Positions 41,208 to 47,200 of a stretch of DNA of 64,000 nt are shown here, piece after piece. The stretch comes from Amyelois transitella. Its lineage: Eukaryota > Arthropoda > Insecta > Lepidoptera > Pyralidae. The position numbers were made by a program, and so were the translations under genes. The stretch covers positions 9,905,501-9,969,500 of the forward strand of contig NC_083506.1 of the NCBI RefSeq assembly GCF_032362555.1, written 5' to 3'. The notes under the pieces are model-generated. The model ran no database searches. It saw nothing but the letters and a program-made list of their open reading frames with translations, and was not told the DNA's origin. Each line of letters begins with the position of its first letter. The stretch's first letter is position 1.

Positions 41208-44200
41208 ATGCCTAAATTTCACAAGGTGGATATTAACAAGACAGAATGGATAGTGCCAGAACGATACCAATCTTTAACACCTGTAGGATCAGGCGCTTAC
41301 GGTCAAGTTTGGTATGTATTTATTTAGGAAGTATTGTAGGCATTTTGCCAGTATTTATTTTTGTTATTCAAAGTCTATTATATGATTTTCTATAATGTAG
41401 TGTATGTTGCAATAGTGCAATGGCCGAGTTGCGTGGGCGGACTGGTAAAGGTATGTCTATTTTGCCTACAGCGCCGCTGTGGATACGCTGCATAATATGA
41501 AAGTTGCCATCAAGAAGTTGGCGCGACCTTTCCAATCAGCGGTACATGCAAAGCGGACATACCGTGAGCTTCGCATGTTGAAGCACATGAATCATGAGAA
41601 TGTTATTGGTAGGTGTTTTATTTGTAAATTATAGTATATACTATTATAAAGGCGAAAGTTTGTATGGATGTTTGTTACTCTTTCACGCAAAAACTACTGA
41701 ACCGATTACCATGAAATTTGGTATGTAGGTAGCTGAAGACCCAGAATAACACATAGGCTACTTTTTATCCCAGAGTTCCCGCGGGATTGATAGGGTTTCC
41801 ATGCGGACGAAGTCGCGGGCGGCCTCTAGTTATAGTATATATTAGAGTTGAGTTGAGTTTACATGTTAATTTAAAATATCAACAATAAATTGAATGGCAA
41901 ATGTTTATGTCAATCTATTGATTGATAGTTGTTCTGATAAAGATATTATGTCAACATATAGATTTAGTGGAATCTAAAGTTATCAATGTTATGGATTAAT
42001 TTATGTTAATAAACAACACAATTATAAATTGTCTTTAATGCAGATAATTTGTTTCAATTACATTAACTTTTTCTCTTAAATCCACAGTTCTTATTTGAAA
42101 AAAGGTATTCTGGTTTGTTATTATAAATATTTTACTATTAGTTATGCATAAATAAGCTCTCAAGATTTCTAATTACATAGCTAGTAATAGATTATAAAAA
42201 AATCCTATTATTATTTACATAGGTTTGCTGGATGTGTTCAGTCCCGAGAAAACAATAGAAGAGTTCCAGCAGGTATACCTGGTGACGCACCTGATGGGTG
42301 CGGACTTGAACAACATCATCCGCACACAAAAACTCTCTGATGACCATGTGCAATTTCTAGTCTATCAGATCCTACGGGGATTAAAGTATATTCACTCAGC
42401 GGGTATTATACACAGGGTATGTTTTCTTGTAATAATGTAGGTACATCTCTGATCCAGGTATATAATCAATCACTGATTTTGCAAAGAACATAGAAGTATC
42501 AATTGGGGAAATACATTGATGAGATAAAGGTCTATCAATATCAACAAGAAAAAGTTGGTATTCATTATATATTTTTAAAAATATACTGGGTGTGATGAAG
42601 CAATAATAGAAAGATAAGAATTTAAGAAAAATGGCTGTTGTAATTCTACATGTGCTTAACTCCAGAACTATTGTATGGGCTAGTTAAAATGTTTCTGTAT
42701 GTTAACAATGTAAAAATAAAATGCATCAGTGTTACAAATGGCCAAGAAATTTTGAGTAAATGTGTTATCACTTGAAGTAATATGACTTTAAGAATCTCAC
42801 ACTTAGGAATAAGCCTATAAATTTGAGATTCTTCTTCTAGGTGATGGGCTTGCAACCTGGCACTAATGAATCTCAACTCTACCATTAAGACAAACACCTG
42901 AACTTGGCCTATCAGTCTTTTCAAAACTGTTGGCTCTGTCTGCCTCGCAAGGGATATAGAGTATAGTATAGATATCTGTAGTAATCCAAGAATTGTTTTA
43001 TTTCTAGGATCTTAAACCCTCAAATATTGCAGTCAATGAAGATTGTGAGCTGAAAATATTAGACTTTGGTCTAGCCAGACCCACTGAAACAGAAATGACT
43101 GGCTATGTAGCCACAAGGTATTTATTTATTTTTATTAAGATTATAAGTTCATAGCTTGTTATACCCACCAAATAACTAAATAGTTCCACCTACTACCTAA
43201 GTTTTGTGTATACCGAAAAAGAGCAGATTGTAGAGTCTCAATATCAAACAATTTAACTTTATTAAATGCTTTTCCACTTCTGGTCATGACTAGACATGAC
43301 TTGCATATAAATTAATAAATCCTTGATTACACTTTCTAATAATCTGTTAAGAATGTCTTACAATGCATTTACCTGTCTTACAATGTATTTGTCAAGAATG
43401 AAAAAAAATATCACAAACATTATTTTACGTAACTAGCGACTATCACTCTGTGAATCCTGTTCCAATGATCAGTTCATTGCAAAACTATTCAGAAGGACGG
43501 AGATAAAATATTCGTATGTAATGGACATGTTTAATACCTGTATTATTTATAGAAACATGATCACACACATGACGTCCTTGCCGAAAGGGTTTTTGAGAGC
43601 ATATAAGTGATCAGCTGTAAAAGGTTATGGCACATACGAGTATTAATGTTTATCTTTCAGTTGCCTAAAACATACATTTATATTGATGTTCCACAGCATT
43701 AGATCTTTTTTCTCTACTATATCACCTTTTTTATCAAACAAATATATTGTTAACAAACAATTCCCTAACAGATGGTACAGGGCCCCAGAGATCATGCTGA
43801 ATTGGATGCACTATAACCAAACAGTTGACATATGGTCAGTCGGTTGCATCATGGCTGAACTGCTGACTGGCAGGACACTCTTCCCGGGCACTGACCGTAT
43901 CCTTTCCAGTTGATGTTGTCTCTAAATGTTGTTTATCTTTGTAATACTCGGCATATAAGTTGAATCAAAATGGCGGCCAGCCATACGTGTCTCATATTTT
44001 CCCTCATCAACTTATGTGCCCATTGTACAAGTTATGAAAAATATATTAAGTGTATATTTTATCATATATGTATAGTATATTTTATCTGTTGAATCAACAA
44101 TTGTGCATTGTGTTTTTAGTAAAAAGTTGATATTGATTATAAATCAAATAGTTCTGAGGTATTAAATTAATAAACATTGATTTGCTACTCTATTTGTATC

Positions 44201-47200
44201 ACCATAAAGTTCGTTTCACAAAATTCCTATTTATTCTAGATCAGACAGATAAAAAATACGCACAATACAGCACGAAAACGTACCTGCATGTTTGATAAAT
44301 TGCCTTATTTTCATATTTCAGCCATCTTTCAGTCTATGGTATTCCATTTATTGTATGTTAGCATTATAATAGCTTGTAATATGACCTTGTTGGCTTTCAA
44401 CCTTAATGGACGAGACAGATATCCATCAATTGAATTTGATCATGGAAGTCCTCGGTACACCGCCACAGGAATTCATGGCCAAGATTTCCTCGGAGTCTGT
44501 AAGTAGATAAAATTCCTTTGCGTTTTGATACATGATAATTTTATTAGTACTTTTTATCGACTATTTGTGTTTGTTTTGCATGCATAACGCAAGATTTGCA
44601 AAATTTTTTGATATCCTTTTTTATATAGAAACCTTTGGAGATTCTGATATTTAATCCTTTAATTTTACCCCTTATCTTTATAACTAGCTGTGCCCGCGAC
44701 TCCGTCCGCGTGTAATAGTTATTTTGGGCATCATTGAAGCCCTCAAGTTTTTTTTTCACATTTTCCATTGTTTCTTCGCTCCTAATAGTTGCAGCGTGAT
44801 GTAACATAGCCTAAATCCTTCCTCGATAAATGGTCTATTCAACACAAAAAGAATTTTTCAATTCAAACGAGTTCCTGAGATTAGCGCGGTCAAACAAACA
44901 AACTCTTCAGCTTTATGATATTAGTATAGATTACAGCACAAAATTGAGATGTTAGTAGATTTAGTACAAGTTTTAACACCCGGAGTTAAATACGGGCTTT
45001 CTAACGGCAGTCTTCAAGAAATAATTCTTCGCTAACTGGTTTCATATGACGAAAACAAAACCGTAACCAGTTACAATTAGCATTTTAAATAACAGGTATA
45101 TCCAATACATATTTTTTATGATCTAGCGGTATGCATGCAGATCCATATTATCTAGGTTCAGAAAATGGATTATTTTCCTGTAATAAAGCTTCGCATTAAC
45201 ATGCTTTCGTTCTGTGGATATGTCTATATTGTACATAGTTACGTCGCTTGTGTAAGTTTGGTGCTTGTGTAACCTTAACATTTGTGCGTCAGATATTGAT
45301 CACCTCACAAGGATTTTGTTTTTGTGCGGAAATCCTGAGCAAGAGACTATTGATAAGATCATTAGTGAAGAGGTAAGCTATATAACAAACGCAATTAAAA
45401 TTTAACACACAAATGCTGGCAGTTGACACAAATATAATATTTAAAAAAACTAAATTTCTTTCTATTGAAACAGAGCACTAGGTGGAGGTCAGTGAAACCG
45501 AGTGACGATTACAAACACTTTAATTACATATTCACTGGCAGTTAACAGAAAAATTACAATAAAAAATACTAAATTATATCTGTATATTAAAAAGAGTGAT
45601 GATTTCAAACGCTTTACTAGTCCACATTAAACAATTTTGCAATTGAATGAATTATAACTTTATACCGCTTATGGGTTTCTTGCATAATAATTTAATGAAA
45701 ACGTGTACATAATAGAGCGAATATTGATCAATGAATAGTTTAATACGACATTGCATTTATCAGGAAATGCAAAGAATGCGGCAGGCCGCATTCTCCAACA
45801 CAGTCTTAGTCGGCTTCAATAAACTATTAATAAGATGTAGGAATTATTGGGAATGATCTAAGTGGCATGTTAGATGCATCCGATATTTTACCATGGTGGC
45901 AGTTGAATAAAAAGATTTATGTAAATGTTACGTCCATTGCATAAATGTAATGTATGTATATTCACAGTAATGATCGTTTGACTTTGTTACTTGAGTGAGC
46001 GTCATGCTTTATTTACGTGTTGTTATTGTACGTGTTCTTGTTTTGTATAGGGTGGTTGTTCCGTCATCATAGGACTCTTTATGAAACTTTAAAACATATG
46101 TAAAACTTTTCAAAGCTTCTATAATATTTAGGTGTTTTATAACGGCAATTATTTTAATAAGTAGGTACTTAATAGCAGTAAAAGGGTTAAAAAAAACAAT
46201 GAACAGCGGTCCACAACATGTTGATATGGAGAAATCCGCGTGTTTATTTCATTGCACACAAAATCATGTAGTAATAAATAAATTCTTTATTTTTTCTCCA
46301 TATAGATTTGATACTATACTGGATAGCGATATATATAAATACCGGATACTGGGATGTTATTGAACCGAAAATATGTTTTCAGTTTTTAGGTCTCCCATTC
46401 ATTAGGTAAGAGTACATACAATTCCAGCGGGAGCAGAAATAAGCGGGATTTTTCGTTTCACTTGGGAACCGCGGGTGAACTCTAGTGAGTGTATGAATAG
46501 GTCCTATGGTATTTAAAATTTAATAAAGTGTAAGAAATAAATTTCCTGCTGCAGGCTAGAAATTACATCAAGAGCTTGCCTCGGCTGAACAAGCGGGACT
46601 TCCGCGAGGTGTTCCGCGGCGCCAGCCCGCTCGCCATCCACTTACTAGAGAGAATGTTGGAGCTTGATGCTGATAAGTAAGTTTACTTTATGTGAATAAG
46701 AAAGATGATTCGTGGTCTTAAAGTGGTTTAAAAATGTTATATGCATAAACTAATCTTGCTAAAATAAGTTTAATTGTAAACAAATATTTTGTTCTCTCTC
46801 GTAAATATGAGAGCCAAGCCCAAACCGAAACCACTGCACTAATTTATAGAAAATTTGAAATCTGTTATGTGCCATTGTTTTTGATTTCTTCTTTCATATT
46901 AGCAACGAAAAGTTGGTAGTTATTTTATTTTACAACATATCTTAACAAAATTCTTACTATTATCACTTAACGTATTATTATGATATAAGCATGCCCTACA
47001 TGAGTAGATGAAAAACTGTTTATTATTTTTGTGAAACGTTACACTATTTTAAACATCCATGTTTGACAAATTATACGATTATGCCTCTCTTTAAACTTCA
47101 CGGTACAGTAGAGTACGGAGATATATGCCTTTTCACCTTTCGCGGCTTCATTGTTGTCGTCGAAATTTCAATAAAACTATGAATCACCTTTGTATTGAAA

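Follow-up and report, generated by a model that had tools for sequence, protein, structure and literature searches.

A putative pair of mutually exclusive exons behind a U12-type intron in the p38 MAPK gene of Amyelois transitella

How can a gene with two neighboring, interchangeable exons ensure that each mRNA receives exactly one of them? This question is raised by a complete p38 MAPK gene that runs from ATG to stop at positions 41208-48764 (+) of the window, the 64-kb stretch of Amyelois transitella DNA analyzed here. We consider it highly probable that exons 6a and 6b of this gene are an anciently duplicated, mutually exclusive pair, which shares one U12-type donor, competes through two U12-type acceptors and exits through U2-type donors. 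The remaining exons, all on the plus strand, are exons 1 to 4 (41208-41311, 41472-41608, 42223-42416, and 43008-43117), the constitutive exon 5 (43772-43896), which ends in phase 1 and splits a His codon (GAC C/AT), the constitutive exon 7 (46555-46676), with a U2-type acceptor (tttcctgctgcag), and exons 8 and 9 (47760-47890 and 48685-48764). Joined translation yields a p38 of 360 amino acids with either 6a or 6b, and Pfam PF00069 is found in both forms. The gene is a p38 MAPK, based on the TGY activation motif in its translation and on p38 as the best match across the full length: the best 60 of 2,730 PDB matches of the 6b-form protein are p38alpha/MAPK14, most of them with E values of 1e-174 or better.

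Exon 6a (44419-44498, +), the canonical p38 version, and exon 6b (45293-45372, +), a diverged alternative with signs of protein-level constraint, are adjacent, homologous, 80 nt long and equal in phase, and each leads to an intact protein. A sequence-only reading of this locus had given these coordinates, lengths and phases, all of which the joined translation confirms, and had described the encoded segments as alignable, in line with the 12 of 27 identical residues and the BLOSUM score of 51 found here. It had further predicted an early stop in exon 7 whenever both exons are skipped or both are used; the skipped product indeed ends in GTDR and a stop at codon 225 (TAG, 46557-46559), and the double-inclusion product stops at codon 288, also within exon 7. 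The 27 residues match residues 228-254 of human p38alpha, a stretch that we take to comprise helix alphaG and the beginning of the MAPK insert.

The same segment is alternatively spliced in vertebrates, which raises the question of whether the two pairs share an origin. For this comparison, we used letters that we take to be those of human CSBP1; PDB entry 3oht is a near-identical chain of the CSBP1 type. In the available part of the source, Mapk14 is described as having mutually exclusive exons (CSBP1/2) within its catalytic domain that influence activity and substrate specificity (PMC1431701). The sequence-only reading had pointed to this vertebrate MAPK14 pair in the same kinase region. A single bilaterian duplication behind both pairs is compatible with the main explanation, and we regard it as possible without favoring it. 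The two systems belong to the same family, involve the same 27-residue segment of the same length, and each combine one canonical and one diverged version, a likeness at the level of the protein segments. Among three fixed trees, the one with a shared duplication is the best (AU 0.91), but 27 residues in eight sequences reject neither an independent duplication (AU 0.13) nor the third tree (AU 0.12). Moreover, the unconstrained tree places 6b with CSBP2, each of the three possible groupings has one quartet-informative column, and 6b is not specifically CSBP1-like, with 10/27 residues identical to CSBP1 versus 14/27 to CSBP2. The pair may thus be ancient or convergent.

The assignment of splice-site classes, predicted from motif matches and spacing, suggests how the choice between 6a and 6b could be enforced. 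The consensus of the U12 5' splice site is RTATCCTTT, and that of the U12 branch site is near TTCCTTRAY, about 10 to 16 nt before the 3' splice site. Directly after exon 5, the putative U12-type 5' splice site GTATCCTTT (43897-43905, +) matches the consensus at 9/9 positions, compared to 3 to 7 of 9 for the eight other p38 donors, and is the sole exact plus-strand copy among the 3,510 GT sites of the window. One further exact copy, on the minus strand at 37495, likewise lies at an exon end, in a transportin-1 gene; 0.6 copies of the exact 9-mer are expected in 64 kb, and at least two occurred in 13 of 100 shuffles. Upstream of 6a, the U12-like branch motif CCTTAAT (44401-44407, +) puts the branch A 12 nt from the exon, and upstream of 6b, CCTTAAC (45273-45279, +) puts it 14 nt away; both are at U12 spacing and match TTCCTTAAC at 6/9 and 7/9 positions, respectively. 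Irrespective of spacing, CCTTAAY is not enriched (18 observed versus 23.3 expected); it stands at U12 spacing before 9 of 3,432 plus-strand AGs. The exon 5 acceptor has a branch match of 8/9, yet 4 nt from the exon, and the branch-consensus score without spacing therefore fails to discriminate. The best branch match of the exon 7 acceptor is 5/9, at the wrong distance. On the exit side, 6a has the U2-type donor GTAAGT (44499-44504, +; 3/9 to the U12 consensus), and 6b has the U2-like donor GTAAGC (45373-45378, +), which matches the U2 consensus at 7/9 and the U12 consensus at 6/9 positions, without the U12 TCC core. The site classes proposed earlier (U12-type donor after exon 5, CCTTAA branch motifs at U12 spacing before both exons, U2-type donors behind them) thus held up at the level of sequence, whereas the claimed absence of pyrimidine tracts stood for 6a (38% pyrimidine at positions -20 to -5) and fell for 6b, whose 62% lies inside the 50 to 75% of the gene's seven other acceptors.

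Under these assignments, the single U12-type donor of exon 5 would serve two rival U12-type acceptors, and either alternative exon would exit through its U2-type donor into the U2-type acceptor of exon 7, so that the joins 5-6a, 5-6b, 6a-7, and 6b-7 would each be handled by one spliceosome. Joining 6a to 6b would pair a U2 donor with a U12 acceptor, and skipping both exons would pair the U12 donor behind exon 5 with the U2 acceptor before exon 7; both need mixed pairs of predicted splice sites and would be barred or strongly disfavored, leaving exactly one of the two exons in each mRNA. This agrees with the earlier argument that 6a should not join 6b, as expected from U2-like donors and U12-like acceptors, and extends it to double skipping, the prevention of which had been credited to the stop codon alone. 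The frameshift would act as a backup, since erroneous joins stop in exon 7 and are expected substrates of nonsense-mediated decay. We speculate that the choice itself is a competition between the near 6a acceptor (522 nt from the donor, with the poorer branch site) and the far 6b acceptor (1,396 nt, with the better one), perhaps tuned by the supply of minor spliceosomes, and that the swap may alter the choice of partner or substrate, like CSBP1/CSBP2.

Exclusion could instead be achieved mainly through the reading frame and nonsense decay, or through regulators, with the major spliceosome also taking the 6b acceptor. We judge this improbable, although several observations speak for it: double skipping and double inclusion alike run into a stop in exon 7, the moderately pyrimidine-rich 6b acceptor makes its use by the major spliceosome conceivable, and dual use of 3' splice sites has been reported in the parts of the sources available (among them PMC10853781), including human MAPK12, where a U2 donor can join a U12 3' splice site given a defective minor spliceosome. 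Against it stand the perfect donor match, the two correctly spaced branch motifs, and an exon 7 acceptor without a U12-like branch motif that would permit skipping from exon 5 to exon 7 by the minor spliceosome. Mutual exclusion that rests primarily on spliceosome incompatibility is therefore our preferred prediction.

Does 6b encode a used segment at all, or is it a decaying copy in a gene that produces the 6a form alone? We find the latter quite unlikely. In its favor, 6b is further than 6a from canonical segments (12 versus 17 of 27 residues identical to p38beta, and 14 versus 16 to CSBP2), and the available portions of a Helicoverpa cloning paper and of two lepidopteran MAPK surveys mention one p38 form and no second. 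A disused exon, however, would hardly be expected to keep an open frame, the exact length, both splice sites and 12 of 27 residues while synonymous change has saturated (pS of 0.99 against pN of 0.43, an estimate from one gene and ∼16 synonymous sites); 10 of the 12 shared residues use different codons. In neutral simulations at equal DNA identity, 42,407 of 200,000 copies stayed open and a single one also retained at least 12 matches. When 44499-46554 was shuffled 2,000 times by dinucleotides, the highest score was 18, against the BLOSUM score of 51 for the pair. Both strands of the whole window together hold 96 open AG-80nt-GT frames (6a and 6b included), among which the next-best score is 7. 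Further, 6b keeps four of the five columns that are invariant across the seven other p38 segments compared, the fifth having changed from Gln to His. The distribution of differences over codon positions (12, 11, and 21; chi-square P = 0.13; one-sided binomial P = 0.033 for the third-position excess) is a weak test when taken alone. Since so many residues were retained despite saturated synonymous sites, 6b looks like a genuine coding exon under protein-level constraint, and its presence in mature RNA is predicted. On its own, the 27-residue 6b segment is too short to be placed, given that its six PDB matches are all weak (best E value 0.28, to TOM20; one MAP kinase at 1.6), and a tblastn search of the window for a third copy of exon 6 or a copy of exon 5 found nothing above noise.

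Competing RNA structures of the Dscam kind, in which a docking site and selectors would pick 6a or 6b, are very unlikely, because the two upstream introns have no direct repeat in common (at least 16 nt, seed 10) and none of three imperfect inverted repeats found at the same settings ties both acceptors to one site.

Searches beyond the gene gave little. Rfam has no match within the window. Three scans of viral contigs yielded 24, 3, and 1 pattern matches and no confirmed relative, and one scan of contigs from bacteria and archaea yielded 111, of which one, from a sponge-symbiont bin, was confirmed. By reading, that locus is an ERK-like exon on a contig that stops short of the segment of interest; the genome carrying it has no match to the protein of exons 5 to 8 (6a form). 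Among the literature matches listed, as far as their available text goes, an exclusive p38 pair in an insect is undescribed, and an earlier report or annotation may exist.

If 6b is used, a single p38 gene makes two kinases that differ in a segment likely to bind partners, under an exclusion mechanism that is hard to break, and the U12/U2 type of exon exclusion described for MAPK genes would extend to insects. The locus would then test exon duplication beside a U12 intron as a recurrent route in stress kinases and offer a natural reporter of the connection that has been suggested between p38 and minor splicing; studies of lepidopteran p38 in the response to UV or Bt toxin, as described in the available parts of those sources, would require isoform-aware assays. 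The connection comes from human cells, where, according to the portion of the report available, p38 activity increases U6atac and minor splicing (PMC3728624), so that the kinase may adjust its own isoform under stress.

The closest parallel lies in another stress kinase. Two kinds of JNK1 chain, which we take to be alpha and beta, become identical, in a comparison of 60 residues, directly behind the codon split in p38 between exons 5 and 6, which suggests that JNK and p38 have their U12 intron at the same position. In the available text of the sources, the 6a/6b exons of the JNK genes MAPK8 and MAPK9 are an exclusive pair with U12-type ends on one side and U2-type ends on the other (PMC8329584, PMC3584512). 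The p38 pair is the mirror image: the JNK exons are entered through U2 acceptors and left through U12 donors, with the exon before the U12 intron doubled, whereas 6a and 6b have U12 acceptors and U2 donors, with the exon after it doubled. Any exon duplicated with a U12 intron on one side and a U2 intron on the other would be exclusive from birth, and we therefore tentatively propose, together with the possible self-tuning of p38, that an ancestral phase-1 U12 intron was a repeated seed for either-or exons in stress kinases, by duplication 5' of the intron in JNK and, separately, 3' of it in vertebrate p38alpha and in insect p38. From what is available of the respective reports, exons 11/11a of TMEM87A/B are also exclusive exons at a U12 intron, in an unrelated gene and with the topology of JNK, unlike the p38 pair, while the twintrons of insect prospero and Urp/ZRSR2 share with p38 alternative splicing by both spliceosomes but consist of overlapping introns instead of a duplicated exon pair. 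Spliceosome incompatibility is a known class of exon exclusion in the accessible literature, and with the JNK mechanism and the exclusive exons of Mapk14 already described, the p38 pair is less surprising: a good fresh example of a known principle, not a new type of system.

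The p38 MAPK gene of the window (41208-48764, plus strand; window G+C about 35%) consists of ten exon units with GT-AG ends on all introns, which join to encode a 360-residue kinase. Its sixth exon exists in two 80-nt versions, 6a (44419-44498, plus strand) and 6b (45293-45372, plus strand), each flanked by the phase-1 split codon (GAC C/AT) at the end of exon 5 (43772-43896) and by exon 7 (46555-46676). Joined translations stay open for 360 aa with either version alone. With neither, the frame ends at the beginning of exon 7 (codon 225), and with the two together it ends in that exon too (codon 288); a stop in exon 7 in both cases is what the sequence-only reading had claimed for these exons of equal length. 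As two exon junctions still lie downstream of both error stops, nonsense decay would be expected for both products. The protein kinase domain (Pfam) is present in both isoforms, and the best 60 of 2,730 matches in a PDB search with the 6b form are p38alpha/MAPK14 chains.

The two versions agree at 36/80 DNA positions and 12/27 residues, with a different codon in 10 of the 12 shared residues, and the Nei-Gojobori proportions (pS 0.99, pN 0.43, over ∼16 synonymous and ∼65 nonsynonymous sites) suggest an old duplication in which the protein has been held. When the number of changes was kept but no constraint was imposed, one of 200,000 simulated runs gave an open frame with at least 12 matches. 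Against 6a, 6b scores 51 and the other open AG-80nt-GT frames at most 7 (96 frames on both strands of the window, 6a and 6b included); a search of the window for a third copy of exon 6 gave nothing above noise. The spread of differences over codon positions (12, 11, and 21) is a weak test (chi-square P = 0.13, one-sided binomial P = 0.033).

Scored against consensus motifs, the exon 5 donor (GTATCCTTT) matches the U12 (minor-class) consensus at 9/9 positions and the eight other donors of the gene at 3 to 7, in agreement with the class first assigned to it. The exact 9-mer occurs twice over both strands of the window (0.6 expected; two or more in 13/100 shuffles), both times at an exon end, the second copy opening the first intron of the minus-strand transportin-1 gene. 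The branch motifs proposed at U12 spacing are likewise present, with CCTTAAY placing its branch A 12 and 14 nt from 6a and 6b, respectively, an arrangement found at 9 of 3,432 plus-strand AG sites of the window. CCTTAAY is not enriched as such (18 in the window versus 23.3 expected), and since the exon 5 acceptor reaches a branch score of 8/9, yet 4 nt away, this score does not discriminate without spacing; the weight rests on branch spacing and pairing with a U12 donor, not on the motif alone. The pyrimidine tract, claimed to be missing from both acceptors, is absent before 6a (38% pyrimidine), whereas its absence is not clear for 6b (62%).

The transportin-1 intron (37495-37243, minus strand; donor GTATCCTTT) is likely a second U12-type intron, with the A of a branch-like TTTCCTTAGC 13 nt from the chosen acceptor, as read by hand. 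The exons joined across it align gap-free to human transportin-1; the acceptor is not certain, because an AG at 37255, inside TTTCCTTAGC, would likewise keep the frame, adding four codons. Divergent from this gene lies a Ribosomal RNA adenine dimethylase exon (38431-38832, plus strand). Also on the plus strand are an open stretch of 811 codons with many TPR repeats (3772-6207), which we take to resemble a TFIIIC subunit, and DNA_ligase_A_N (8775-9173) and BRCT (14720-15169) domains, which we would guess form one DNA ligase III gene (8775-15169). Within p38 itself, the 3' part and donor region of exon 8 have two partial tandem copies (region 47760-48179), at 47962-48088 (broken) and 48098-48179, with pieces 91-98% identical; read-through out of exon 8 runs into a stop ahead of both copies, so they look like recent relics.

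For the exon 6 pair, the splice-site sequences make inclusion of one exon through U12/U2 incompatibility the most likely reading. The minor spliceosome would join exon 5 to either 6a or 6b, and the major (U2) spliceosome would join that exon to exon 7. Joining 6a to 6b would require a U2 donor to act with a U12 acceptor, and joining exon 5 to exon 7 the converse, a U12 donor acting with a U2 acceptor. Mixed combinations of either sort should be excluded or at least strongly disfavoured, which would leave one exon in the transcript. Two acceptors would contest the single exon 5 donor, that of 6a at 522 nt with the poorer branch match and that of 6b at 1,396 nt with the better, and we speculate that this competition sets the isoform ratio. 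In human cells, p38 activation is reported to raise U6atac and minor-intron splicing (PMC3728624); by analogy, insect p38 could influence its own 6a/6b ratio.

The swapped segment corresponds to residues 228-254 of human p38alpha (numbering of 360-residue chains), where 6b retains four of the five columns invariant among 6a, the vertebrate MAPK14 versions CSBP2 and CSBP1, the 3oht protein, p38beta, p38gamma, and p38delta. In a mouse survey, the mutually exclusive catalytic-domain exons of Mapk14 are said to influence both activity and substrate specificity, and a title cited there reports complementation of a yeast hog1 deletion by CSBP1, not CSBP2 (PMC1431701). By analogy, 6b may alter partner choice.

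The moth pair may be ancient or convergent. Over 27 residues, 6b matches CSBP2 at 14, 6a and p38beta at 12, and CSBP1 and the CSBP1-type chain 3oht at 10, and 6a matches CSBP2 at 16. CSBP1 and 3oht agree at 24/27; given how stable that exon is, a plain orthologue would be expected to lie closer to it than 6b does. Among three fixed trees, the ancient-origin tree is best (AU 0.91 versus 0.13 and 0.12), with none rejected; the unconstrained tree places 6b beside CSBP2. Searches of viral and bacterial/archaeal contigs yielded no further species for comparison. The bacterial/archaeal scan did return what reads as an ERK-like eukaryotic exon (2899-3130 of stretch L001); it lies in a bin of a bacterial sponge symbiont and is probably sponge contamination. 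The original observation is sound and was well read. No published report of the pair in insects was found among the listed matches, which is weak evidence of absence, as gene-model databases and most subscription papers lay outside the search.

The Drosophila p38 genes are not known to have such an exon pair. In Diptera the number of U12 introns is typically no more than 15-20 (PMC3584512), which may be why none is known. Other sources call MAPK14 U12-regulated (PMC12637451), give minor-intron genes as 69% of MAPK genes (PMC6865273), and, in a census of human exclusive exons, ascribe 0.79% of clusters (five cases) to U2/U12 acceptor incompatibility (PMC5740500). We regard the moth pair as most likely an insect case of an already known exon-exclusion principle. 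Two kinds of JNK1 chain in the PDB, presumably alpha and beta, differ up to a Tyr or His codon and are identical after it (60 residues compared), and this switch point coincides with the exon 5/exon 6 split of p38. The exclusive exons of MAPK8 and MAPK9 (JNK) are described as having U2 acceptors and U12 donors (PMC8329584, PMC3584512), the mirror image of the predicted U12 acceptors and U2 donors of the p38 pair. As far as JNK protein chains can indicate, this fits an intron shared by JNK and p38, with duplications on opposite sides of it.
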